Shown: piece by piece, positions 13,824 through 26,878 of the stretch | Numbering within the stretch: the stretch's first letter is position 1 | Layout: every line of letters starts with the position of its first letter | From: an uncultured Lentisphaerota bacterium | GTDB taxonomy: Bacteria; Verrucomicrobiota; Kiritimatiellia; RFP12; UBA1067 | Assembly: GCA_900320225.1 (NCBI GenBank) | Contig: ONRL01000007.1 | Span: 1-34,975 of the forward strand | Direction: 5' to 3' | Length of the DNA: 34,975 nt | Translations under genes and position numbers: made by a program | Notes under the pieces: generated by a model | Told to the model about the DNA's origin: nothing | Database searches by the model: none | What the model saw: the letters and a program-made list of their open reading frames with translations, nothing else

Positions 13824-16800
13824 ATGACGAAGAGACTGTTCGTGAGCATGGCGGCGATGGGAATTGCCGGCGGCATGGCGTTCTCGGCGAATGCTGAGAC
13901 GCTCACGTGGAACGGCGCGCGCGGCGCGCGGTGGAACGACGCGAACTGGCTGGACGCCGGGAACAATCCCGTCGCGTGGCAGGACGGCGCGGACGCCGTT
14001 TTCCCCGCCGGCGCGTTCGTGGAGGTTCACGACTCGGTGCGGCCGGCCTCGATCACGTTTTCAGGCAACGGCGCGACGCTCGTCGGCGCTGGGCGCATCA
14101 TCCTTCCCGGCGACCTGACCGCGTCCGTTGCGGGCACGACCAACTCCATCGTCGCGAAGCTGGTGGGCGACGCGACGTTTACGAAGCGCGGCGCAGGCGC
14201 GGTGGCCGTTGGCTTCGCGAAGGGTTCGGCCCTTGCGGCGGAGGGGACACTCCTCGTCGCCGGGTCGCGCAGCGCGAACCTCCGCACGACGGCGTCGGGC
14301 GGCACAATCGAGGCGCTGGCCGAGGGCACGAAGGCGGCTAGCCTGCTCGCGAACGGCTCGTTCGAGGCCACGACGGCCAGCAGCAGCTACGTCTACATGA
14401 ACGGCCAAGAAGCGGGAACGGGCGTAGCGGACAAGGAGAACACGGCCGTCGCGCCGTGGAAGGTGACCGAGCAGGTGGTGCTGGCCAACAGCGCGGGCGT
14501 GAAGACCTGGTGCGGGAGCGGCGGCATCACCGGCACGGGCATCCCGGACGGCGACCAGCTCTGCATCCTCCAGCGCTTCGGATCGATCATGCAGGAAGTG
14601 ACCGTCGCCGAGGCTGGATGGTACGATCTCTCCTTCACCTATTACAAGCGCGGGAACAGCTACCTCGACCACCGCATCACCATCTCTTTGGACGACGTGG
14701 CGGCCATATCGCTCCTCGCGAACATGGTTCAGCCTCATCAGGTGCGGTTCTCCTCCGGCCCCATCTGGCTCACGGCGGGCACGCACGCGATACGGTTCTC
14801 GGGCGAAGGCTGGTGGCGCGACGTCTCCACGTTCGTGGACGACATCCGTCTCGCGCCGCCTACTGCGGGCGTCCTGCCGCAGTCCGCCGCCAAGGCCGCG
14901 AACGCCGTCTCGGGCAACTGGTCCTCCGCCGCCCTGTGGGCGGACGGCACGCCCCCGCCCGCAGGCGGCAGCGCGGCCACGTCGCTCTATTTCCCGCTCG
15001 TGGACGGCCTCGCGAGCGCGAACGACCTCGCGGGCACGTTCCTCTTCAACAGCCTCCGCTTCAACGGCGTCGCGTCCGGCGAGACGGCGACGCTCTCCGG
15101 CAACGCGCTCTCCAGTCGCCGCGACGGCTCCTACCACGGTTACCTCTACCTGGACACGCCCGGCGAGCTGTGCATCGGCCCGGCGTTGACCGTCAACTCC
15201 AACCTCGTCGTCGACACGGAAGGCGACTTGATTGTGACCGGCGGCGTCAACACGGTTCTCGCCGAGGGTTCCGCCTTCGAGAAGACCGGGAACGGAACGT
15301 TTGCGGTCGGCGGAAGCCTTTCAAACGTCGGGCGCGTCTACGTGACGGACGGAACGTTTGAGTTGAGGACTGCTCCGACCGCAATGGGCTGCTTTCTGAG
15401 GTCCGCGACGAACACCGCGCCGACCGTCAGTTTCAACGTCTCCGCAGACACATCGGCGAATGTTTTCGTGGATGCGCAGGGGGCGGGGCTCCCGACGGTC
15501 GTCATGCGCACGGGGAAAGGGGTCAAGCTGACGAACAGCAACACCCTCAACTGCTACGGTCCTCAGGTGCGCGTGGACGTGGGCGAGGGCGACACGCTTG
15601 AATTCACGTATGTCTATCAGTGCACGTGGCGTTACCCGTTGGGCAGCACCAGCCTGCTCAAGACGGGGTCGGGGACCTTCTCCATCAAGGAGGCCCCGAC
15701 CGCGATGACTCCGCTTCCGGCGAATCCCGAGGGTGTTCTCGGCGCGTTGCGCGGAGGCGTCACCGTGCGTGAGGGCACGCTTCTGTTCTATGCGGACGAC
15801 TTCAACCCTGGCGAGGGGCTCGCCAACATCTACACCGGCACGGTATTCCCGAGCAGCAGGGAAGGTACGCTCGGCCATGACACGGCCGTTCCTTTGATGC
15901 TGGGCGACGAGCAGACGCCGTCGGACGCGACTGTCGGCATCGGCTGCGGGACCGCCCACACCTGTTCCACTCGCACATACATCGCCACGCCCTATCCCGA
16001 ACAGGTCGTCCTCAGCGCGATCAGCAACGGCGTCTACCAGATGGGCACGGTCGTTCTCCGGCGCAGCGACTTGACGCTCGGCGGGCCGACGGGCGACGTG
16101 GCCGAGGTGAACGTGATGCTCACGAACGTGGAGTTGGACGGCGTCCCCGCCGCCACGATCACGCGTTCGGGCAACGTTCGCGCGATCCTGAACGCGACGA
16201 ACTATCCCGCCGGGATGACGCTGACGTCGGACCGGATGTTCGAGGTCGGCTTCCGCCGTTCGCTTCCCGTCTCCATTGGCACTCTCACGCTTTCCGGCGG
16301 CTGGCAGGTCAGCTTCGACGCGGCGGGCCACGACAGCGTGTCCGCCACGAACCTCGTCCTCGGCGCGACGGAGGTCACGCTCTGGGACGACGTGAACGCG
16401 CGGACGTTCGCGCAGCCCGGCACCTACACGCTGCTCCGCTACGGCACGCTTTCGGGCGACGTCTCGTCGCTCACGGTCGCCGAGAGCTGCAAGGTGCCCG
16501 GCTACGGCTACGCGATCGCGGACGACGGCCACGGCGCGATCACGCTCACCGTCACGACGGCGGCCGACAATCCCGTCTATACGTGGACCGCCCCGGCGGG
16601 TGGCACGTGGGGCGAAGCGTCCAACTGGGACCACCCGGCGGCGCCAGACGGCGCGACGGCGCAGGCCGTCCTCGGACCCGCCCCGCAGGCCGCCGCCACG
16701 GTGACGCTCGCCGATCCCGTCACGGTGAACGCCTTGACGCTTTACAACGCGAACGGCTACACCGTCGCGGGCGAACCCCTGCGCCTTGGCGGCGACGCGC

Positions 16801-19800
16801 CGTTCATTCTCGCATCGGCCGGCGACCACGTGATCCAGTCCGCCGTGACGAACCTCGCCGCGACGCCGATTTCCGTGCAGAGCACGGAGGAGGGCCGCGT
16901 GCGTTTCGCGGGAGACGTGACGGGCAGCCTGGCGGTCGAGCGCGGGCAGGCGACGCTCGCCGAGGGCATGACGCTGGACGGCAACGTCACGGTGACCGGC
17001 GCGACGCTCACGGTCGAGAGCGGAGTGGACATTACCGGCACGGCCACGCTCGGCACGAACGGCAAGCTGGCGACGGCGACGCCCGTCGTCCTTGATCGGC
17101 TCGCGGGCGCGGACGCGACGGCGGAGATCGTCGTGAACGACACGCTCACGCTCGGCGGCGGTGCCTCCACTTTCGGCGGCACGGTCAGTGGAACGGGCGC
17201 GCTGGTCAAGGACGGGGACACGACGCTCACGCTGAACGGCCCGTCGTTCACCCATGCGGGCGGAACCGTCGTCAAGGCGGGCACGCTCGCGGTGGGCTCG
17301 GCGCTCCTGCCGGGCGAGACCTGGCTGGCGGAGGGCGCCACGCTCACGTCCTCCGGCTTCAACCACGGCCTGACGGGCCGCTACTACGGGTACTACACGG
17401 CCGCCAACCAGGACTCGTTCGTCGGCCAGGTCTATTCACGGCAGGACTACGAGGCGATGCTGGCCAAGATGACGTTCCGCGGACAGTTCCACCAGCCGCT
17501 CGCCACGGCGTTCTCCATCGGCGACACGAAGGAAAACCCGTTCGCCTCGAACTTCAAGTCGCAGGACCGCTGGGCGGCGGTCTATACGGCCAATCTGATC
17601 GTCCCCGAGACGGGCCTCTACAGTTTCTACGTCGTGGCCGACGACCAGATTATCCTCATGATCGACGACTGCAAGGTGCTGTCCTCGACGCGCGTCGGCA
17701 AGGCGAACTACGGCGGCTGTTACCTCACGGCCGGCATCCACACCTTCTACTTCGGGCTGTTCGAGATCACGGGCGACGCCTACGCCGACCTCTACGTGAA
17801 GCAGCCGAGCGAGAGCGCCTACAAGCTGCTGCCGGGCGCGTGGCTGACGCCGGACGCCGGCGCGGCGAAGGCCGCGGGGAAGGGCGTCGTGGCGGCGGAC
17901 GCGGGAACGGTGACGACCGTGGGGACGGGCGTGGATTCCGGTTTCGACTCCGGCTTCGCGGGCACGTTCGCGGCGGCGAACGGCGGCCTCGTGCAGAAGA
18001 CCGGCGGCGGCATCCTGACCGCCAGTCACGCGAGCGGCGGCGTGGCCGTGAGCGGTGGCGAGCTCGTGCTTGCCGGCAACGATGCCTTCGACATGGTGCG
18101 CACGACGGGCGACGGCACCGTGCGCATTTCCGGCGGCACGATCCGCAATCTCTCCGGCGACGGCAAGGCCGCGTTCGGCAACGGCGTGTACACGGTCCCG
18201 CTCATCACCGGCGACGCGGACAGCGGCTTTTCCACGAACAAGACCTACACGCACCTCGTGAACTTCCCGGAGGGAAGCCAGGCGGCGGTGATCAACGGCG
18301 TGACGGTCGACAACACGGGCGTCTGGACGCACTCCGGAAAAGCATGGGCGAATAACTGGGGGGGGGACGGCGGAACGACGGAAACTGGCTTCGGACGCCT
18401 GGTCTACCGCTTCCACCACGGCAGCCCAGACTTCACCATCACGCTCTCCGGCCTCACGCCCGGGAAGCGCTACGACCTGCGCCTCTATTTCCGCAACTTC
18501 TCCAGCGACTTCAGGCGCAACTTCACCGCGTACTTCACCCGCGGCAACGGGGAGGAAATCGGCCGCCAGGACTGGAATGCCGACTACGACGCGGCCAAGG
18601 GCGCGGGGCGGAGCGGCAACTCCGCCATCGGCTGCCGCTATGTGGCGGGGGCCGATGGAACGGTGACGTTCAGGATCGTCAGCTACGACGGGAGCAACTC
18701 GTGCCACACGTACGGCTTCTCCAACGAGCTGCTGGGCGACGCGCCGGGCGCGTCGGCGGTCTCGCTCGTGCCGGCGGCCGGCGAGACGGCGCGCCTGACG
18801 GGCGGCGTCTCCGGCACGGTTCCGCTCTCGCTCGACGGCGCGGGCACGCAGGTGCTCGGCGGCGACATCGCGCTCCCCGCCCCGTTCGCCGTGAACGCGG
18901 GACGCCTCGTGCTGGAGTCCGGCGCCACGGTGACGACAGGCGTGACGGTGGCGAGCGGCGCGGCGGTCGAGCTGCAGGGCTCCGCGCGGGTCGACGGGCT
19001 CTCCGGCGCGGGCACGCTCCACCTCGGCCTCGGCGACAACGACCCATGGGGCGCGCTGCAGGCGGACGGCACGTTCGCCGCGCCCGAGTGGCCGCGCCGC
19101 GTGAACATCTCCGGCGATGCGGACAGCGGCATCGCACCGTTCAAGAAGTACACGCATTTCTTCAATCCCGGCCACAAGGCAGACACCATCCTGCTGGTGA
19201 ACGGCGTGCCGATCAGCTGCATCGTGGACAACTCCGGTGCCACCACGATCCATACCGACCACCATCACGGCGGGGCCCTGACGGGATTGCCGCAGACACA
19301 GCTTCTCGACGACAACGCCACCAGAAACGCGCCCATCCACATTTCCAACACGAACGCGATGTGGCGGTTCTTCAACAGGTTCCAGTATGCGTCGAACAAC
19401 GCGCTGTCCCTCAGCAACCTCACCGCCGGCGCGACATACGAGCTGCGTCTCTACGTGCGGCCGTGGACGATTCCCGGGACACGCAACATCACCTTCACCT
19501 ACAATGACGGCACGGGAAGCAAGAGCTACCACTTCAACGAAGACGCCAATACCACGTCCGACGACTTCATCGCCCTGCGCTACACGCCCACGGGCACGTC
19601 GTTTACGCTGTCGTGGAATGCCGACGTGGCCAAGGACGGCTTCCACCTCTACGCCTTCAGCAACGAGGAGGTGGCGGAGCACGTGCGCGTCGTCAACGTC
19701 GACGCGAACTTAACCTACTCCGGTGCGATCTCCGGCAACGGCGAGCTGCGCAAGACGGGCGCGGGCACGTGGACGCTGACGGGCGCAGGCACGGCGAGCG

Positions 19801-20312
19801 GCGCGTGGGCCGTGGCCGAGGGCGCGCTCGTGCTGGACAATGCGACGGCCACGACGGGACCTGTGGCGGTTGCCCCCGGCGCGTCGTTCGGCGGCGTCGG
19901 CTCCGCAGGCGGCTTGATCGGCGTCGCCTCGGGCGCGACGCTCCTCCTCGGCACGGACAACTCGGCCGGCACGCTCGCGGCGGGCAGCAACGTTGTGGTT
20001 GCCGCCGGCGCGGCGGTCACGATGCGCTACGCGTCCGACGGTTCGTGCGGCGCGCTCGCGTCGTCTGGTTCGGTGACGGTGCCCGCGAGCCTCACGGTCA
20101 CGGCGTCCCCGCTCGTCGCGGGCACGAAGCTCACGCGCCGGGTGCGGCTGTTCGCGGCGGAGACCGCGCTGAACGGTCCGTCCGACCTCTCGGGCTGGAC
20201 GGCCGTCGACGCCGAGGGCGCACCCATCCGTGGCGCGAAGTTCACCTACGGCGACGACGGCAAGAGCATCTGGCTGAACGCCACATCCGGCACGGTCCTC
20301 TTCTTCCGCTAA
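13824..20312 (+). CDS. Giant secreted surface protein with autotransporter-associated repeats and a PA14 domain
   Basis: A 2162-aa protein with a signal peptide (MTKRLFVSMAAMGIAGGMAF, cleavage after SANA) and strong AAGGAG 8 nt before the ATG. Most of it is repeats of the autotransporter-associated beta-strand type, for example LVKDGDTTLTLNGP...GGTVVKAGTLAVG (about residues 1130-1155) and LRKTGAGTWTLTGAGTASG near 1974, which form a beta-helix. Residues 172-349 look like a carbohydrate-binding jelly roll (NGSFEA...FTYYKRGNSY...DDIRLA). GNWSSAALWADGTPP and GTWGEASNWD (about 365 and 925) open repeat blocks. Residues about 1180-1340 are a PA14 domain (GLTGRYYGYY...YSFYVVADDQIILMIDD). Two related modules follow (about 1458-1641 and 1760-1952). 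It ends GTVLFFR without an outer-membrane barrel. A G9 run lies at 18358-18366. Adhesion or glycan binding is inferred. Confidence 0.82.
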   Translation: MTKRLFVSMAAMGIAGGMAFSANAETLTWNGARGARWNDANWLDAGNNPVAWQDGADAVFPAGAFVEVHDSVRPASITFSGNGATLVGAGRIILPGDLTASVAGTTNSIVAKLVGDATFTKRGAGAVAVGFAKGSALAAEGTLLVAGSRSANLRTTASGGTIEALAEGTKAASLLANGSFEATTASSSYVYMNGQEAGTGVADKENTAVAPWKVTEQVVLANSAGVKTWCGSGGITGTGIPDGDQLCILQRFGSIMQEVTVAEAGWYDLSFTYYKRGNSYLDHRITISLDDVAAISLLANMVQPHQVRFSSGPIWLTAGTHAIRFSGEGWWRDVSTFVDDIRLAPPTAGVLPQSAAKAANAVSGNWSSAALWADGTPPPAGGSAATSLYFPLVDGLASANDLAGTFLFNSLRFNGVASGETATLSGNALSSRRDGSYHGYLYLDTPGELCIGPALTVNSNLVVDTEGDLIVTGGVNTVLAEGSAFEKTGNGTFAVGGSLSNVGRVYVTDGTFELRTAPTAMGCFLRSATNTAPTVSFNVSADTSANVFVDAQGAGLPTVVMRTGKGVKLTNSNTLNCYGPQVRVDVGEGDTLEFTYVYQCTWRYPLGSTSLLKTGSGTFSIKEAPTAMTPLPANPEGVLGALRGGVTVREGTLLFYADDFNPGEGLANIYTGTVFPSSREGTLGHDTAVPLMLGDEQTPSDATVGIGCGTAHTCSTRTYIATPYPEQVVLSAISNGVYQMGTVVLRRSDLTLGGPTGDVAEVNVMLTNVELDGVPAATITRSGNVRAILNATNYPAGMTLTSDRMFEVGFRRSLPVSIGTLTLSGGWQVSFDAAGHDSVSATNLVLGATEVTLWDDVNARTFAQPGTYTLLRYGTLSGDVSSLTVAESCKVPGYGYAIADDGHGAITLTVTTAADNPVYTWTAPAGGTWGEASNWDHPAAPDGATAQAVLGPAPQAAATVTLADPVTVNALTLYNANGYTVAGEPLRLGGDAPFILASAGDHVIQSAVTNLAATPISVQSTEEGRVRFAGDVTGSLAVERGQATLAEGMTLDGNVTVTGATLTVESGVDITGTATLGTNGKLATATPVVLDRLAGADATAEIVVNDTLTLGGGASTFGGTVSGTGALVKDGDTTLTLNGPSFTHAGGTVVKAGTLAVGSALLPGETWLAEGATLTSSGFNHGLTGRYYGYYTAANQDSFVGQVYSRQDYEAMLAKMTFRGQFHQPLATAFSIGDTKENPFASNFKSQDRWAAVYTANLIVPETGLYSFYVVADDQIILMIDDCKVLSSTRVGKANYGGCYLTAGIHTFYFGLFEITGDAYADLYVKQPSESAYKLLPGAWLTPDAGAAKAAGKGVVAADAGTVTTVGTGVDSGFDSGFAGTFAAANGGLVQKTGGGILTASHASGGVAVSGGELVLAGNDAFDMVRTTGDGTVRISGGTIRNLSGDGKAAFGNGVYTVPLITGDADSGFSTNKTYTHLVNFPEGSQAAVINGVTVDNTGVWTHSGKAWANNWGGDGGTTETGFGRLVYRFHHGSPDFTITLSGLTPGKRYDLRLYFRNFSSDFRRNFTAYFTRGNGEEIGRQDWNADYDAAKGAGRSGNSAIGCRYVAGADGTVTFRIVSYDGSNSCHTYGFSNELLGDAPGASAVSLVPAAGETARLTGGVSGTVPLSLDGAGTQVLGGDIALPAPFAVNAGRLVLESGATVTTGVTVASGAAVELQGSARVDGLSGAGTLHLGLGDNDPWGALQADGTFAAPEWPRRVNISGDADSGIAPFKKYTHFFNPGHKADTILLVNGVPISCIVDNSGATTIHTDHHHGGALTGLPQTQLLDDNATRNAPIHISNTNAMWRFFNRFQYASNNALSLSNLTAGATYELRLYVRPWTIPGTRNITFTYNDGTGSKSYHFNEDANTTSDDFIALRYTPTGTSFTLSWNADVAKDGFHLYAFSNEEVAEHVRVVNVDANLTYSGAISGNGELRKTGAGTWTLTGAGTASGAWAVAEGALVLDNATATTGPVAVAPGASFGGVGSAGGLIGVASGATLLLGTDNSAGTLAAGSNVVVAAGAAVTMRYASDGSCGALASSGSVTVPASLTVTASPLVAGTKLTRRVRLFAAETALNGPSDLSGWTAVDAEGAPIRGAKFTYGDDGKSIWLNATSGTVLFFR
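18358..18366 (+). repeat. G9 homopolymer in the surface-protein gene
   Basis: Nine consecutive G encode part of NWGGDGG near residue 1512. Gain or loss of one G would shift the frame and remove the last 650 residues. It is a candidate slipped-strand phase-variation tract. Confidence 0.6.
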
Positions 20313-20321
20313 AAAGAAACG

Positions 20322-21767
20322 ATGTACGACCAGATCTACAAGCGGATTGACGATACGCTCTGGAAGGACGCTGGATGCGGAAGCGAGCTCGACTACGTGG
20401 AGCAGTCGAGCTGGATCCTCTTTCTCAAATACCTCGATGACCTCGAGCAGAGCCGTGCGGCCGCGGCGGAGCTCGACGGGCGCACCTACAAGCCCATCAT
20501 CGAGCGGAAATTCCGCTGGAGCACGTGGGCCGTGCCGAAGAAGAACGGTGAGAAGGACCTGTCGAAGACGCTCACGGGCGACGACCTCCTCGGATTCGTG
20601 CGCGGCGAGCTTTTCCCATACCTCCGCGCGTTCAAGACATCCGAGGCCTCGCCCGATACCCTCCAGTACAAGATCGGTGAAATCTTCAGCGGCATCCAGT
20701 GCAAGCTCACGAGCGGCTACGTGATGCGCGACGTATTCGACGAGGTGGACAACCTCCGCTTCCAGTCGAGCGAAGACCAGCACGAGATGAGCTCGCTCTA
20801 CGAAATCCGCATCAGCCGCATGGGCAACGCGGGCCGGAACGGCGGCGAATACTACACCCCGCGTCCGCTCATCCGCTCGATCATCGCCGTGCTGGAGCCG
20901 AAGATCGGCGAGCGCATCTACGACGGCGCATGCGGCTCGGCGGGCTTCCTTTGCGAGGCGTTCGCCTATCTCATCAAACTCTGCAGGACGGCGAAGGACC
21001 GCGAGACCTTGCAGAAGAAAATGCTCTTCGGCAAGGAGAAGAAGGCGCTTCCCTTCATCATCGGCACGATGAACATGATCCTCCACGGCGTGGAGGCGCC
21101 GAACATCCTCCTCGCGAATACCCTCGCCGAGAACCTTGCCAACATCCAGCCGTCGCAGCAGGTCGATCTCATCCTCGCCAATCCGCCATTCGGCTCGAAC
21201 TCCGAGCGCGGCGAGATCAAGGAGAACTTCACGATCAAGACGGGCGAGACGGCCTATATGTTTCTTGAGCATTTCATCCGCATGCTCAAGCCGGGCGGTC
21301 GCGCGGGCGTGGTGATCAAGAATACCTTCCTCTCGAACGGCGATGCGACCGCGCTTCGCAAGATGCTGCTTTCCGACTGCAACCTCTTCGCCGTGCTTGA
21401 TTTGCCGCAGAAGGTTTTCACGGCGGGCGTGAAAACGGTGGTGCTTTTCTTCGAGAAGGGCCGCCCCACGAAGAAGACCTGGTTCTACCAGCTCAACCTC
21501 GACCGCACGCTCGGCAAGACCAACCCGCTCACCGAAGATGACCTGGCCGAATTCCGCACGCTCTTCAAGAAGAAATGCGATAGCGCGAACTCATGGACGG
21601 TCAACATCGCCGACCTCGACCCCGATACGCTCGACCTCACCGTGCGCAACCCAAATGCGAAGGAAGAGAAAGTGATGCGCGCGCCAAGGGAAATCGCGGC
21701 GGAGATGGCCAAGCTCGACAAGTCGAATGCAGCGCTTCTCGCCGACATCCTGAAAGCGCTGGGGTGA
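20322..21767 (+). CDS. hsdM: Type I restriction-modification system, DNA methyltransferase subunit
   Basis: A 481-aa N6-adenine methyltransferase subunit (HsdM). The N-terminal helical part (YDQIYKRIDDTLWKDAGCGS...LFLKYLDDLE) is the type I N-terminal domain that contacts HsdS. GGEYYTPRPLIRSIIAVL introduces the catalytic domain, with SAM motif I DGACGSAGFLCEAF near residue 200 and motif IV NPPFG near residue 286, which flips and methylates adenine. With HsdS it forms the sequence-specific modification enzyme. It starts 9 nt after the giant surface gene, with neither a promoter nor a terminator visible in the gap and only weak Shine-Dalgarno pairing. Its stop overlaps an ATG (TGATG) and the next real start is 4 nt later, so the downstream transposase-like gene is expressed with it. 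Confidence 0.93.
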   Translation: MYDQIYKRIDDTLWKDAGCGSELDYVEQSSWILFLKYLDDLEQSRAAAAELDGRTYKPIIERKFRWSTWAVPKKNGEKDLSKTLTGDDLLGFVRGELFPYLRAFKTSEASPDTLQYKIGEIFSGIQCKLTSGYVMRDVFDEVDNLRFQSSEDQHEMSSLYEIRISRMGNAGRNGGEYYTPRPLIRSIIAVLEPKIGERIYDGACGSAGFLCEAFAYLIKLCRTAKDRETLQKKMLFGKEKKALPFIIGTMNMILHGVEAPNILLANTLAENLANIQPSQQVDLILANPPFGSNSERGEIKENFTIKTGETAYMFLEHFIRMLKPGGRAGVVIKNTFLSNGDATALRKMLLSDCNLFAVLDLPQKVFTAGVKTVVLFFEKGRPTKKTWFYQLNLDRTLGKTNPLTEDDLAEFRTLFKKKCDSANSWTVNIADLDPDTLDLTVRNPNAKEEKVMRAPREIAAEMAKLDKSNAALLADILKALG

Positions 21768-21771
21768 TGGC

Positions 21772-23307
21772 ATGGCCGAAGAGGTAAGGCGAGATATCAT
21801 TCACCACATGGGTCGCCGGTGCCGCGATTGGGATTACGGCGGGCGGGCGATCTACATGATCACCATCAACTTGAAAGAGCGCGGCCGCCCGGTGATGGCT
21901 GAATGGCCACGATTCCTCGACGTTTCCGCCGAGGCGCAGGAGCAGAACCTGCCCGTTTCCGGGCAGGCGCAGAACAGGCCCGGCAACGGGCGGCGCAGCG
22001 CTTCGGCGCGGTTCTGCGCTTCGGCGGAAACGGCGAAGTTACCATGCGCTTCGGCGGAAACGCCGAAGGTATATATGCCCCTCACGCCCTTGGGCGAGAA
22101 GGTGCTATCATGCTGGCGGCGCATCCCCGAATTCTGGCTGATGGTTGAATTGCTTGAATGCCAGGTGATGCCCGATCACTTCCACGGCTTGCTTTTCGTG
22201 AAAGGGGCCTTGCTTTCCAGCAGCGGGCGACCGAAAACCTTAGGCGATGTGGTGCGGGGCTTCAAAACCGGCTGCCGGGAAGTTGGATGGGAAGAAGGAT
22301 ATGTGGATAATATCCTTTTCCGCGAAGGGCAACTCAAGCGCATGGCCGATTACATCCGCGATAATCCGCGCCGCCTTGCCGAAAAAAGGGCCAACCCCGG
22401 GCTTTTTAGGCACGTGGCGGATTTGACGATTGACCTGCTCGTTTCCGAGCAGGCGCAGAACCGGCCCGTATCCGGGCAGGCGCAGAACCGGGCCATATCC
22501 GAGCAGGCGCAGAAGCGGGCCGCAGCTCGGCCAGAGCAACTTCAGCTCTTTCCCGAGCATGATTTGCGCCAGCCCGGAAACGGGCCGATCAGTGCTTCGG
22601 CGGAAACGGCGCGGTTCTGCTCTTCGCCGGAAACGGCGAAGTCTTTCCGAGCCCACTTTTCTGCCATTGGCAATGCCGCGCTTCTGCGGTGGCCGGTGAT
22701 TCTGCAGGTGCAGTGCTCGCGCAGCGATTTCAGATACCAGCGCGTGCGCCTCCCGACCGGCGGATGGAAGATCCTGCGCAATGCCGCCGGCGAGCCGCTG
22801 GTGGAATACGCCTCGCCCGCTTTCGAGGCAAAGTGCGAGGATGCCCTGCGCTGCGCCAAAAACGGCGCGGCGCTGATCAGCCCGTGCATTTCGCACGGCG
22901 AGCGCGAAATCGCCCGCCGCGCCCATCTCGCCGGCATGCGCGTGATCGCGTTGTGCAACAAGGGCTTCTCGAAGTTCGAGAAGCCCAACGGCGCGCTCTT
23001 CGATCAGTGTGCCAAGGGCAATCTGCTCATGCTCGCGCCAGCAGCCTGGCCGTATGTGCCCGGCGAAAAGCCACCCACGCGCGAATCGTCGCTTGTGCTG
23101 AACCGCATCGCGCAGTTGATCGCCGGCGAGGGGCGGGCGGAAATCAAATACAACGGCATGGTGCTCAAAGATATCGATTCCAAGGTCCGCGAGGCCCTGC
23201 GCCCGCGGCTGGATTCGGTTATTGGCAGCGTACCTAAAGAGGAGGCCGACTTCGTTCGCAAGGCCATCGCAGAGCAGCACGTCATCGATGAGGAGATGTG
23301 GAAATGA
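21772..23307 (+). CDS. REP-associated Y1 transposase domain fused to a Rossmann/SLOG-like domain
   Basis: A 511-aa protein lying between hsdM and hsdS. Residues about 15-215 are a REP-associated tyrosine (RAYT, Y1/HUH-type) transposase domain: RDWDYGGRAIYMITINLKER is the usual first strand, LLECQVMPDHFHGLLFV (about 128-144) holds the His-x-His metal site, and MADYIRDNPRRLAEKR (about 191-206) carries the likely nucleophilic Tyr. Residues about 290-511 form a second domain (SAIGNAALLRWPVILQVQCS, ISPCISHGEREIARRAHLAG, VIALCNKGFS, GNLLMLAPAAWPYVPG). Its strand-helix order and loops resemble Rossmann-type SLOG/DprA folds. I recall the same fusion from Bacteroidetes proteins; the SLOG identity is an inference. 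Two blocks (about residues 50-100 and 222-284) are translated REP-like repeats. It overlaps hsdS by ATGA, so it travels with the restriction system. Confidence 0.78.
   Translation: MAEEVRRDIIHHMGRRCRDWDYGGRAIYMITINLKERGRPVMAEWPRFLDVSAEAQEQNLPVSGQAQNRPGNGRRSASARFCASAETAKLPCASAETPKVYMPLTPLGEKVLSCWRRIPEFWLMVELLECQVMPDHFHGLLFVKGALLSSSGRPKTLGDVVRGFKTGCREVGWEEGYVDNILFREGQLKRMADYIRDNPRRLAEKRANPGLFRHVADLTIDLLVSEQAQNRPVSGQAQNRAISEQAQKRAAARPEQLQLFPEHDLRQPGNGPISASAETARFCSSPETAKSFRAHFSAIGNAALLRWPVILQVQCSRSDFRYQRVRLPTGGWKILRNAAGEPLVEYASPAFEAKCEDALRCAKNGAALISPCISHGEREIARRAHLAGMRVIALCNKGFSKFEKPNGALFDQCAKGNLLMLAPAAWPYVPGEKPPTRESSLVLNRIAQLIAGEGRAEIKYNGMVLKDIDSKVREALRPRLDSVIGSVPKEEADFVRKAIAEQHVIDEEMWK
21921..22068. 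repeat. REP-like palindrome cluster I inside the transposase ORF
   Basis: Closely packed palindromes. TGCCCG and CGGGCA (21950-21965) surround TTTC. CTTCGGCG and CGCCGAAG (22049-22068) form a perfect 8-bp stem with a GAAA loop, and a near-copy with one mismatch lies at 22019-22038. The left part (CGTTTCCGCCGAGGCGCAG, then GAGCAGAACC) recurs inverted on the right as GGTTCTGCGCTTCGGCGGAAACG (two pieces: GGTTCTGCG, CTTCGGCGGAAACG). It is translated as SAEAQEQNLPVSGQAQNRP and further residues. Confidence 0.7.
22437..22517 (+). repeat. 27-nt tandem repeat, three units, inside the transposase ORF
   Basis: Units at 22437-22463, 22464-22490 and 22491-22517 share GCAGGCGCAGAA and a short stem around TTTCC or TATCC. 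27 nt is nine codons, giving VSEQAQNRP, VSGQAQNRA and ISEQAQKRA. The same unit occurs once in cluster I (21950-21975). Confidence 0.8.
22572..22642. repeat. REP-like palindrome cluster II, second half (inverted units)
   Basis: GCCCG-GAAA-CGGGC (22573-22586) is a perfect 5-bp hairpin with a GAAA loop. It is followed by two GCTTCGGCGGAAACGGCG / CTTCGCCGGAAACGGCGAAG units joined by CGGTTCTGCT. These are the reverse-orientation partner of the 27-nt repeats just upstream, so the whole block 22437-22642 is head-to-head. Translated as SASAETARFCSSPETAKS. Confidence 0.65.
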
Positions 23308-24506
23308 GCGGCTGGACCACAAAGAAACTGGGCGAGGTGTGCGAGATATTTCGCGGAGGTTCGCCAAGGCCAATAAAAAGCTTTATCACTAATGAACCAA
23401 ATGGCATAAATTGGATTAAAATTGGTGATACAGATTTAGGAGGGAAATACATTTCGAGCTGTGCCGAGAAGATTAAGCCGTCAGGAGTTCAGTATTCACG
23501 CTATGTTGAACGCGGTGATTTTTTGATTTCAAATTCCATGAGTTTTGGACGCCCATATATTTTGAAGATAAACGGGTGTATTCACGATGGTTGGTTAGTC
23601 ATCAAAAAATATGAAGGCACTTTTGACCAAGATTTCTTGTTCTATCTGCTACAATCACCGAGTGTTCAATTCCAGTTTAATGATTTGGCCAGAGGAAGTA
23701 CGGTTAGAAACTTAAACCGTGAATTGGTAGCACGCGTGAAAGTGCATTATCCTGAGACAGTTGCCGAGCAGAAGCGGATTGTGGCGAAGATCGACGCGGC
23801 GTTTGAGAAGATCGACAGGCTGAAGGCCAACGCCGAGAAGAACCTTGCGAACGCGAAGGAGCTATTCCAATCCGCGCTTGACGAGGCCATGCGCCCGAAG
23901 AAGGGGTGGGTAGAGAAGCGGCTGGGGGAGGTGTATGAGATAACATCAAGTAAACGAGTGTTTAAATCTGAATGGAAAACCGCTGGCGTTCCATTCTATA
24001 GAGCGCGTGAAATAGTAAAATTGGCTGCGAATGGGTTTGTTAAAAATGAACTTTTTGTAAGCGAAGAGATGTATGAAACATATGCCCAGAAATATGGCAT
24101 ACCGAAAGCCGGTGATATTATGATTACTGGCGTAGGAACGCTGGGTGTTTGCTATGTCGTAAAAGAAGACGATAAGTTTTATTTCAAGGATGGGAATATT
24201 ATTTGGTTAAAGAAATGCTCTAATGATGTGGATTCGAAATTCATTTCACTAGCATTTTCAACATCCCCTGTGCGAAAGCAGGTGCTCGCCAATGCAGGAA
24301 CGACTGTTGGCACATATACGATTATTATGGCAAAGAATACTGTTGTACAGATGCCAACAATCGTAGAGCAGAAAAAGATCGTAAACTATGTTACTAGCTT
24401 ACGGAGACAAATCGAAACCCTCCAGCAGAACTACGCGCGGCAGATCGCCGACTGCGCGGAGATGCGGCAGGCGATCTTGCGTGAGGCATTTGAGGGGAGA
24501 CTATGA
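23304..24506 (+). CDS. hsdS: Type I restriction-modification system, specificity subunit
   Basis: A 400-aa HsdS that reads the bipartite target site. It has two target-recognition domains: TRD1 from WTTKKLGEVCEIFRGGSPRP and TRD2 from WVEKRLGEVYEITSSKRVF, each with the LGEV-I start typical of the family. Each is followed by a helical spacer (EQKRIVAKIDAAFEKIDRLK and EQKKIVNYVTSLRRQIETLQ). The DNA of both TRDs (about 23365-23755 and 23937-24400) is visibly AT-rich, whereas the central and terminal conserved parts match the GC-rich genome, which suggests TRD exchange by recombination. ATG 23304 has AGGAG 8 nt ahead and overlaps the upstream stop (ATGA); a GTG at 23298 would add two residues. Its end overlaps hsdR by ATGA. 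Confidence 0.9.
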   Translation: MSGWTTKKLGEVCEIFRGGSPRPIKSFITNEPNGINWIKIGDTDLGGKYISSCAEKIKPSGVQYSRYVERGDFLISNSMSFGRPYILKINGCIHDGWLVIKKYEGTFDQDFLFYLLQSPSVQFQFNDLARGSTVRNLNRELVARVKVHYPETVAEQKRIVAKIDAAFEKIDRLKANAEKNLANAKELFQSALDEAMRPKKGWVEKRLGEVYEITSSKRVFKSEWKTAGVPFYRAREIVKLAANGFVKNELFVSEEMYETYAQKYGIPKAGDIMITGVGTLGVCYVVKEDDKFYFKDGNIIWLKKCSNDVDSKFISLAFSTSPVRKQVLANAGTTVGTYTIIMAKNTVVQMPTIVEQKKIVNYVTSLRRQIETLQQNYARQIADCAEMRQAILREAFEGRL

Positions 24507-26878
24507 ACGAAGCGCAGACGAGGCTGAACCTGATCGATCCCGCGATACGGGCGGCGGGATGGACGGAGGAGAACGACTGCCAGGTGCTGGTGGAGCAGAC
24601 CGTCGCGCCGGGGCGCGTGGGGAAGGTGCGCGGCAAGCCGCTCCGCGCCGACTACATCCTCTCCTATCGCGGGCGGCGGCTCGTGGTGGTCGAGGCGAAG
24701 GGCGACGAGCATCAGGCGATCGAGGGCTACGAGCAGGCGCTCAAGTACGGGCGCATGCTGGGCGTGCAGGTGGCGTATGCGACGAACGGACGCGAGATCC
24801 TCGAGATCGACCTCGCGACGGGCGGGGCGAATCCCGTGTCCGAATTCCCGGCGCCGCAGGAACTGTGGTCGTTCATGGGGCTCGGCGGCGGCGAGGGATG
24901 GGTCGAGGCGTTTTCCCTCGTGCCGCTCTGGTTCGACGCGGTAAAAAGGCCGCGCTACTACCAGGAGCTGGCGGTCAACCGCGTGACCGATGCCATCGCG
25001 GCGCGGCAGCGGCGCATCCTCCTCACGCTCGCCACCGGCACGGGCAAGACGTTCATCGCGTTCCAGATCGCGTGGAAGCTCTTCAAGGCGAGGTGGAACC
25101 TCCAGGCGGCGGCGGGCGACGGACGTCCGGGCGCGCGGACGCCGCGCATCCTCTTCATCACCGACCGCAACATCCTCGCCAACCAGGGGCTGATCGACTT
25201 CAGCGGGTTCGACGAGCACGCGCTCGCCCGCGTCACGCCCAAGGCGATCCACAGGCGCGACGACAAGGTGCCCACGAACGCGACCGTTTTCTTCACGATC
25301 TACGAGACGCTCATGCAGGGCGAGCCGGGCCGGGAATTCTACCGACAGTACGCGCCCGACTTCTTCGACTTCATCATCATCGACGAATGCCATCGGGGCG
25401 GCGCGAAGGACGAAAGCACGTGGCGTCAGATCCTCGAATACTTCGAGCCCGCGTACCAGCTCGGCATGACCGCCACGCCCAAGCGCGACGTCAACGCCGA
25501 TACCTACCGCTACTTCGGGAGGCCGGTCTACGAGTATTCGCTTCTGCAAGGGATTGAGGACGGCTTCCTCACGCCGTTCCGCGTCCAGAAGGCGACCTGC
25601 ACGATCGACGACTACGAATACGACGACTGCGATACCGTCGTTTCCGGCGAAGAGGAGCTGGACAAGGAGAAGACCTACGAGGAGCGGGACTTCTACCGGG
25701 GGCGCATCCGCATCCGCGAGCGCGACGAGGAGCGCGTGCGGGAGCTGTTGGACAAGATCAACCCGATGGACAAGACCATCATCTTCTGCTACAACCAGCC
25801 GCACGCCATGGAGATCATGTCCATGGTCAACAAGTTCCAGAAGCTCGCGGAGAAGACGCCCGACTACTGTCGCCGCGTGACGGCGAACGACGGCGAGGAG
25901 GGGGAGCGCTTCCTGCGCGAGTTCCAGAACAACGAGAAGCAGTTACCGGTCGTCCTCACCACGTCGCAGAAGCTCTCGACGGGCGTCGACGCGCGGAACG
26001 TGCGGAACATCGTGCTGATGAGGCCCGTCAACTCGATGGTCGAGTTCAAGCAGATCGTCGGGCGCGGAACGCGTCTCTTCGACGAGAAGTACTACTTCAC
26101 CATCTACGATTTCGTGGGCGCGAGCGACAAGTTCGACGACCCGGCGTGGGACGGCCCGCCCGTGTGTCCGAAATGCGGGTGCGACCCGTGCGTATGCACA
26201 CGCGGCGGGAAGGGCCGGGGCGGCGGCGAAGGGGGCGACGGCCCGAAGGCGTGCCCGATCTGCGGCAATCTTCCCTGCACGTGCGAGAAAATGGAGAAGA
26301 CGATCGTCATCCGCCTCGGGAAGGACCGTAAGGTACAGGTGAACACCGCGTGGGAGAGCCTCATCATGTATGACGGGAAGATGGTTCCCGTGGAGGCGTT
26401 CGTGAAGAAGGTGTTCGCGAAAGTGACGGGGCTCGTCGGCTCGGCGGAGGAGCTGCGCCAGGCGTGGAGCGAGCAGACGACGCGTCGGGAGCTGCTCGCG
26501 AAGCTGGCCGAGAACGGATTTGAGATGGATCGGCTGAAGGAACTGCAGAAGCTGATGGACTCCGAGGACTGCGACCTGCTCGACGTGCTGGAGTACGTGG
26601 CGTTCGAGGTGCCCATGCAGAAGCGCGTCGCGCGCGCGGGCGCGGCGAGGAAGGGGCTTTCGCACTGGGTCACGGATGAGCATGCGAAGGGCTTCTACAC
26701 GTTCGTGCTCGACAACTACGTGCAGGAGGGCGTCGACGTGTTCACGCGCGACGACGCGCTCTCGCAGCTCATCGTCACGAAGTACCACACCATTGACGAC
26801 GCCCGCAGTACGCTTGGTAATCTCGCCGAGATCCGCACTGGCTTCGCCACCCTCCAGCGTGCGGTCTACGCGGCGTAA
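24503..26878 (+). CDS. hsdR: Type I restriction-modification system, restriction (translocase/nuclease) subunit
   Basis: A 791-aa HsdR. The N-terminal nuclease domain shows RADYILSYRGRRLVVVEAKG, a PD-(D/E)xK site with Asp and the E-A-K pair near residues 50-66. The superfamily 2 motor follows with LATGTGKTFIAFQ (Walker A, about 177), IIIDECHRGG (motif II DECH, about 290), GMTATPKRD (motif III) and VLTTSQKLSTGVDARN, then QIVGRGTRLFDE (motif VI, about 516). It cuts unmodified DNA after ATP-driven translocation in complex with HsdM and HsdS. Between the motor and the C-terminal helical domain is an unusual Cys-rich insert (about residues 554-596) with two CPxCGxxPCxC motifs separated by a Gly-rich linker, likely zinc binding. 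Start overlaps the hsdS stop (ATGA). Confidence 0.92.
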   Translation: MNEAQTRLNLIDPAIRAAGWTEENDCQVLVEQTVAPGRVGKVRGKPLRADYILSYRGRRLVVVEAKGDEHQAIEGYEQALKYGRMLGVQVAYATNGREILEIDLATGGANPVSEFPAPQELWSFMGLGGGEGWVEAFSLVPLWFDAVKRPRYYQELAVNRVTDAIAARQRRILLTLATGTGKTFIAFQIAWKLFKARWNLQAAAGDGRPGARTPRILFITDRNILANQGLIDFSGFDEHALARVTPKAIHRRDDKVPTNATVFFTIYETLMQGEPGREFYRQYAPDFFDFIIIDECHRGGAKDESTWRQILEYFEPAYQLGMTATPKRDVNADTYRYFGRPVYEYSLLQGIEDGFLTPFRVQKATCTIDDYEYDDCDTVVSGEEELDKEKTYEERDFYRGRIRIRERDEERVRELLDKINPMDKTIIFCYNQPHAMEIMSMVNKFQKLAEKTPDYCRRVTANDGEEGERFLREFQNNEKQLPVVLTTSQKLSTGVDARNVRNIVLMRPVNSMVEFKQIVGRGTRLFDEKYYFTIYDFVGASDKFDDPAWDGPPVCPKCGCDPCVCTRGGKGRGGGEGGDGPKACPICGNLPCTCEKMEKTIVIRLGKDRKVQVNTAWESLIMYDGKMVPVEAFVKKVFAKVTGLVGSAEELRQAWSEQTTRRELLAKLAENGFEMDRLKELQKLMDSEDCDLLDVLEYVAFEVPMQKRVARAGAARKGLSHWVTDEHAKGFYTFVLDNYVQEGVDVFTRDDALSQLIVTKYHTIDDARSTLGNLAEIRTGFATLQRAVYAA

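Follow-up and report, generated by a model that had tools for sequence, protein, structure and literature searches.

The closest described systems to the gene analysed here are the class 2 TnpA_REP (RAYT) genes, in particular subclass 2.4, some of which carry REPs in frame within the gene (PMC6006769). There is no evidence for mobility of class 2 TnpA_REP genes (PMC6006769), and RAYTs have been described as domesticated, vertically inherited genes without self-copying (PMC8049555). Further points of comparison are the TnpA transposases of IS200/IS605 elements, the DprA/SMF proteins together with ShosA, and the YhcG/DUF1016-, RhuM-, Fic- and KilA/Bro-N-like genes that are carried as cargo by restriction-modification (RM) operons. 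Our literature searches on RAYT and DprA, or on RAYT and restriction operons, returned nothing on point.

The gene in question, here called X, lies mid-contig in a stretch of 34,975 nucleotides (the window) from a 351-contig draft genome of 5.2 Mb. It forms part of a type I operon with the order hsdM-X-hsdS-hsdR, in which all genes share the plus strand and all junctions are coupled. The EcoAI-type methyltransferase gene hsdM (20322..21767, +; Pfam and PADLOC; Pfam N6_Mtase 1.8e-58, plus HsdM_N) ends in TGA, which is followed by TGGC and then by the ATG of X (TGATG, a 4-nt gap). X itself (21772..23307, +) encodes 511 aa and stops with the TGA at 23305-23307. The likely start of hsdS (23304..24506, +; Pfam and PADLOC; Pfam Methylase_S 1.4e-26) is the ATG at 23304 (MSGWTTKKLGEV...), giving a 4-nt ATGA overlap with X; the list of open reading frames holds an alternative GTG start upstream, at 23298. 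An EcoAI-family hsdR (24503..26878, +; NCBIfam NF046051 8.5e-219; Pfam ResIII and EcoEI_R_C) overlaps hsdS at its start. These coordinates verify the coupled M-X-S-R unit described in the initial annotation. On the same strand, a gene for a 2162-aa protein with PATR repeats and PA14 (13824-20312) ends 9 nt upstream of hsdM.

The product of X is a RAYT-type HUH transposase fused to a DprA-like SLOG domain. Its HUH motif MPDHFHG (residues 133-139; 22168..22188, +) and its catalytic tyrosine motif YIRDNP (residues 194-199; 22351..22368, +) had already been read as a Y1 HUH-type core, and their key residues (M133, H136 and H138; Y194, N198 and P199) proved invariant in 28 relatives. A profile of the family matches IS200/IS605 TnpA structures (ISDra2, E 2.4e-4), PF01797 is found in 6 of 28 family members, and the NCBIfam REP-associated transposase model NF047646 scores 24 bits on X, below its cut-off of 80. 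None of Pfam, PADLOC and NCBIfam supplied a family name for X.

For the C-terminal domain (about residues 287-478; 22630..23205, +), the initial annotation had guessed at a SLOG/DprA relationship. Pfam does not recover it: the domain receives no Pfam name, and DNA_processg_A (DprA) has no match in the window and matches only one of 62 members, at E 0.093. Structure prediction, however, confirms a DprA-type SLOG Rossmann fold. An AlphaFold model built from 62 related sequences (pLDDT 92.2) has ShosA as its nearest solved structure (Z 10.5, 137 aligned, 3.6 Å), followed by DprA (Z 8.4-9.4), with the next matches at Z 4.9 and below. A weak sequence match also aligns the LL-x-P...SR segment of X to LL-x-P...TR of DprA, and the SPCISxGE segment presumably stands at the SGxAxGID region of DprA. 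Beyond this domain, X of the window ends in a 33-residue tail (23206..23304, +) that is present in no other aligned copy and has no homologue among the fetched loci by tblastn; it may derive from the insertion site. In a phylum sample of 289 genomes, 29 have relatives of the C-terminal domain, the RAYT half being attached in nearly every copy read, and the fusion also extends to Bacteroidota. It is thus a standing family of Kiritimatiellota/Verrucomicrobiota-type MAGs and Bacteroidota, and no local accident.

X shares with class 2 TnpA_REP, and especially with subclass 2.4, its HUH core, the Y---NP motif, REPs in frame within the gene and paired inverted hairpins (PMC6006769). It differs in having DHFH where class 2 has NH[IFV]H, and in adding a DprA-like C-terminus of about 190 aa, so that RM-linked copies measure 365-511 aa against a class 2 median of 194. 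With IS200/IS605 TnpA (ISDra2 TnpA 2xm3) it has in common the HUH/Tyr fold, as recognised by HMM, and element-associated hairpins; yet IS200/IS605 has Y---Q and subterminal hairpins outside the ORF, whereas X has Y---NP, a fused domain and internal hairpins. DprA/SMF and ShosA resemble X in their SLOG Rossmann fold and LL-x-P start segment, but X is HUH-fused and lacks a Pfam DprA match. In X, DprA-like handling of ssDNA and an HUH nuclease would be joined in one chain.

Two in-frame palindrome arrays, absent from the initial annotation, lie within X. The first (21915..22069) precedes the HUH motif and has units in both orientations, such as 21948-21975 (-) and 22011-22038 (+). The second (22434..22641) occupies the linker between the HUH and DprA-like domains, with minus-strand units at 22434-22461, 22461-22488 and about 22488-22515, and plus-strand units at about 22587-22613 and at 22614-22641. 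The arrays of the window therefore flank the HuH-Y segment, one before HUH and one after Tyr, whereas the insertion of subclass 2.4 lies between HuH and Y; four other X copies (L016, L017, L018 and L054) do have in-frame palindromes between HuH and Y. The common form combines a GTTCTGYG foot with a stem of 8 bp and a loop of 4 nt, and the GAAA-loop hairpin of X has the form GTTCTGCG-CCTGCCCG-GAAA-CGGGCAGG. In an alignment of ten units, of which eight come from the window and two from another locus (L094), pairing reaches 91%, and 4 of the 8 pairs show compensatory changes; not one of 500 shuffles attained the observed pairing or covariation score. The foot was set post hoc, from data already viewed; permuted feet gave 0-2 matches in total, inside and outside X taken together, with the exception of GTCCTGT, itself a variant of the foot. 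Because in-frame REPs are already known from subclass 2.4, in-frame hairpins alone are no novelty.

What sets these palindromes apart is their foot and their confinement. Class 2 has the foot GT[AG]G, whereas X has GTTCTGYG, or GT[TC]CNG across its family. The canonical GT[AG]G foot was considered and ruled out for X: hairpins with this foot number 6 in X (170 kb) and 44 outside (1.59 Mb), about equally per Mb. Class 2 REPs are dispersed, whereas the X palindromes are private to the gene. Allowing up to 3 mismatches, the window hairpin has six sites in the 5.2-Mb genome, and all six are within X, which rules out a dispersed REP family in the same genome. Other X copies have loop sequences of their own, mostly in both orientations. 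Palindrome density per Mb is 587 in X, 103 in the flanks of RM-linked X and 22 in the flanks of other X, against baselines of 10 in a sample of the window's genome and 6 in RM relatives lacking X; the background rate was taken from a 206-kb own-genome sample and whole-genome pattern searches.

Some palindromes have nonetheless entered neighbouring genes. The HsdR of one X-bearing operon (L060) contains two in-frame hairpin insertions with loops like those of the local X, and both are missing from an X-less relative whose HsdR is 84% identical (L295). Comparable repeats occur in the HsdR of L056, L057 and L054. Palindromes in the hsdR of L074 and L118, at VLFRGLLAPARLL, fall on conserved native sequence and were left out of the insertion count. 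In L094, at 1100-1320, the gene downstream of X has X-cognate GAAA-loop hairpins, in frame, within its first codons and around a likely signal peptide.

X shows signs of gene mobility, unlike class 2 genes. Where near-identical copies occupy unrelated sites, their similarity breaks off near the start codon at one end and no more than about 20 nt from the stop codon at the other (L074/L127, L118/L127, L061/L101, L070/L122 and L084/L085), although in some pairs divergence extends into the 5′ part of X and the left edge is less sharp. L074 and L127 are about 93% identical in nucleotides over most of X. L084 and L085 share one complete, single-contig genome, and their similarity runs from start -1 to stop -2; the comparisons otherwise draw mostly on MAGs. 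Since similarity is limited to the ORF, the unit that moves probably differs little from the ORF, with the stop and the few codons before it perhaps supplied by the target. No consensus target was seen upstream of X among the sites compared, and no target duplication was found at X sites.

We therefore favour, with a probability of roughly 0.6, the interpretation of X as a single-gene mobile element of RAYT/TnpA_REP type, whose movable unit is roughly its own ORF and which in the window would be a co-translated passenger cargo of the operon. Neither this ORF-exact mobility nor the empty sites described below featured in the initial annotation. Transposition is the mechanism suggested by sequence comparison, and the ORF-limited similarity could in part reflect recombination or lateral transfer. 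Indeed, ordinary recombination or the lateral transfer of operon cassettes might account wholly for the movement of X, its own HUH activity playing no part. We regard this as rather doubtful. Unrelated genes are swapped at the same junctions of RM operons, so that a general slot mechanism may exist, and class 2 TnpA_REP genes offer no evidence of mobility (PMC6006769); but X copies away from RM operons, and two copies sharing a genome (L084/L085), have ORF-exact edges as well, and cognate palindromes have entered the neighbouring hsdR.

A link between X and type I operons, for which the initial annotation had proposed a survey, does recur. Profiles of M, S and R assign 15 of 114 non-redundant X copies to such operons, every one on the operon strand and with HUH and Tyr motifs intact, and only at M|S or S|R junctions. 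The order M-X-S-R is found in the window and in L060, L074, L103 and L118; X stands between S and R in L016, L054, L056, L057, L087, L101, L107, L111, L112 and L130, a group in which some have extra genes between or an operon partly lost at a contig end. Within the order to which the window belongs (11 genomes, 25 hsdS loci, merged by hand), 8 of 29 X copies are within 8 kb of an hsdS locus against 0.29 expected, an enrichment of about 28-fold (binomial P 3e-10); a cautious variant allowing 30 kb per hsdS locus gives P 7e-7. Other RAYT loci of the same 11 genomes are near hsdS in 0 of 56 cases (Fisher against X, 9e-5).

This survey rules out a one-off insertion, and it is scarcely credible that X is a chance event or an assembly artefact at one hsdM-hsdS junction. 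The draft state of the genome, with its 351 contigs, would leave room for an artefact, but the M-X-S-R order recurs in independent assemblies (L060, L103, L074 and L118), X is mid-contig, and the enrichment has a binomial P of 3e-10. Because the RM label changes 11 times on the X tree (at least 9 changes forced; mean with shuffled labels 13.5), X appears to have entered type I operons repeatedly, with little clustering on the tree. The 28-fold enrichment also exceeds what random landing would lead one to expect, and in this respect it counts against the mobile passenger that we favour.

Most copies of X are outside RM operons, beside ordinary genes (upstream, for example, a hydrolase, isomerase, regulator, aldolase or aminotransferase). 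None of the 20 closest hsdM relatives of the window (most 55-68% identical) carries X, and in many of them M|S or S|R is occupied by other genes. Close relatives of L074 (L288, L289 and L291-L293; M 82-91% identical) have M adjoining S with no X, although their hsdS varies and the right junction cannot be aligned base by base; relatives of L060 (L294 and L295; M 94% identical) have a YhcG-like gene at the junction of X. Further cargo at M|S or S|R junctions includes RhuM-, Fic-, KilA/Bro-N-, ORF6N- and AlbA-like genes (L203-L222 and L294-L300), identities that were judged by reading the sequences themselves. Like X, such genes occupy these junctions with stop/start overlaps, but X is a transposase-family protein that is also widespread outside RM loci. 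X is best read as interchangeable cargo of type I operons. The X tree and the X-less hsdM relatives rule out a domesticated RM subunit of single origin, and the domesticated component proposed in the initial annotation is not supported, given the scatter of RM copies on the tree and the location of most copies elsewhere. That annotation had also held that a functional association would fail if related hsdM-hsdS pairs lacked X and its homologues stood at random sites: related pairs without X do exist, but the homologues are not at random sites.

Three pairs of orthologous X-bearing operons bear on what X does once installed. The dN/dS of X is 0.11 in L056/L057, 0.18 in L074/L118 and 0.28 in L060/L103, and HsdS is 42-45% identical within pairs against 79-95% for X, M and R (M compared in L074/L118 and L060/L103). 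Given the purifying selection on X and its retention alongside M and R, the operon possibly gains some benefit. A purely neutral passenger would be unlikely to keep so low a dN/dS for long, and this weighs most heavily against the idea of a pure passenger.

X could accordingly be a functional type I accessory, in which the DprA-like domain senses or captures ssDNA (from phages, plasmids or restriction products) and the HUH domain processes it as a defence partner. We consider this unlikely, although several observations are in its favour: the repeated association, with 15 of 114 copies in RM operons and 11 tree changes; the constant strand of X, always between M and R, with intact catalytic motifs; its retention under purifying selection despite the change of hsdS in three pairs; other defence genes in X-bearing operons (DSR2-like in L016, Tmn-like in L056); and the proximity of its C-terminal domain to ShosA, DprA homologues being known to act in phage-defence and toxin-antitoxin loci (PMC9122126). 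Against it are the absence of X from all 20 closest hsdM relatives and from close relatives of two X-bearing operons, the non-defence neighbours of most copies and the lack of any matching PADLOC family.

The same identities could suggest that X, as an HUH nuclease beside hsdS, drives diversification by promoting the swapping of specificity genes, a role in hsdS recombination that the initial annotation had raised. HsdS has been replaced, with X kept, in all three pairs, and to that extent the proposal stands. HsdS replacement is, however, common in type I systems without X, and X-less relatives of these operons differ in hsdS too. Moreover, hsdS has no visible target, because the palindromes of the window occur only in X genome-wide. 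We think it very improbable that X acts in this way.

As the mobile element that we favour, X would use its HUH domain to nick and join its own hairpins on ssDNA, at the replication fork or on incoming DNA, while the DprA-like domain would hold ssDNA or recruit recombination proteins. The sequences show its entry into gene junctions at start and stop codons, with the neighbours left unbroken, and it may be tolerated in the window because its insertion preserves translational coupling. A more ambitious version, in which a RAYT lineage transposes as its own ORF with recognition hairpins in the coding sequence, is steered by its DprA-like domain via ssDNA into coupled defence operons, seeds hairpins in hsdR and benefits restriction, is speculative, and we doubt that all of it holds. 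RAYTs have been described as immobile, against which stands a RAYT-DprA family with ORF-exact edges, empty sites, internal hairpins and hsdR insertions. Through this family, the movement of RAYTs, the function of their hairpins and the reasons for a cargo slot in restriction operons become tractable questions.

Some X-bearing operons contain additional genes. In the genome of the window, a second type I operon (L016, 1-11047, C173) has a DSR2-like SIR2 gene (PADLOC 2e-176) and a 250-aa ORF between hsdS and X. L064 has a 25-aa hsdS remnant, the same ORF as in L016 and X, without DSR2. A Tmn-like YobI-ATPase gene lies within the X-bearing RM operon of L056 (10476-14138) and is missing from the otherwise similar L057.
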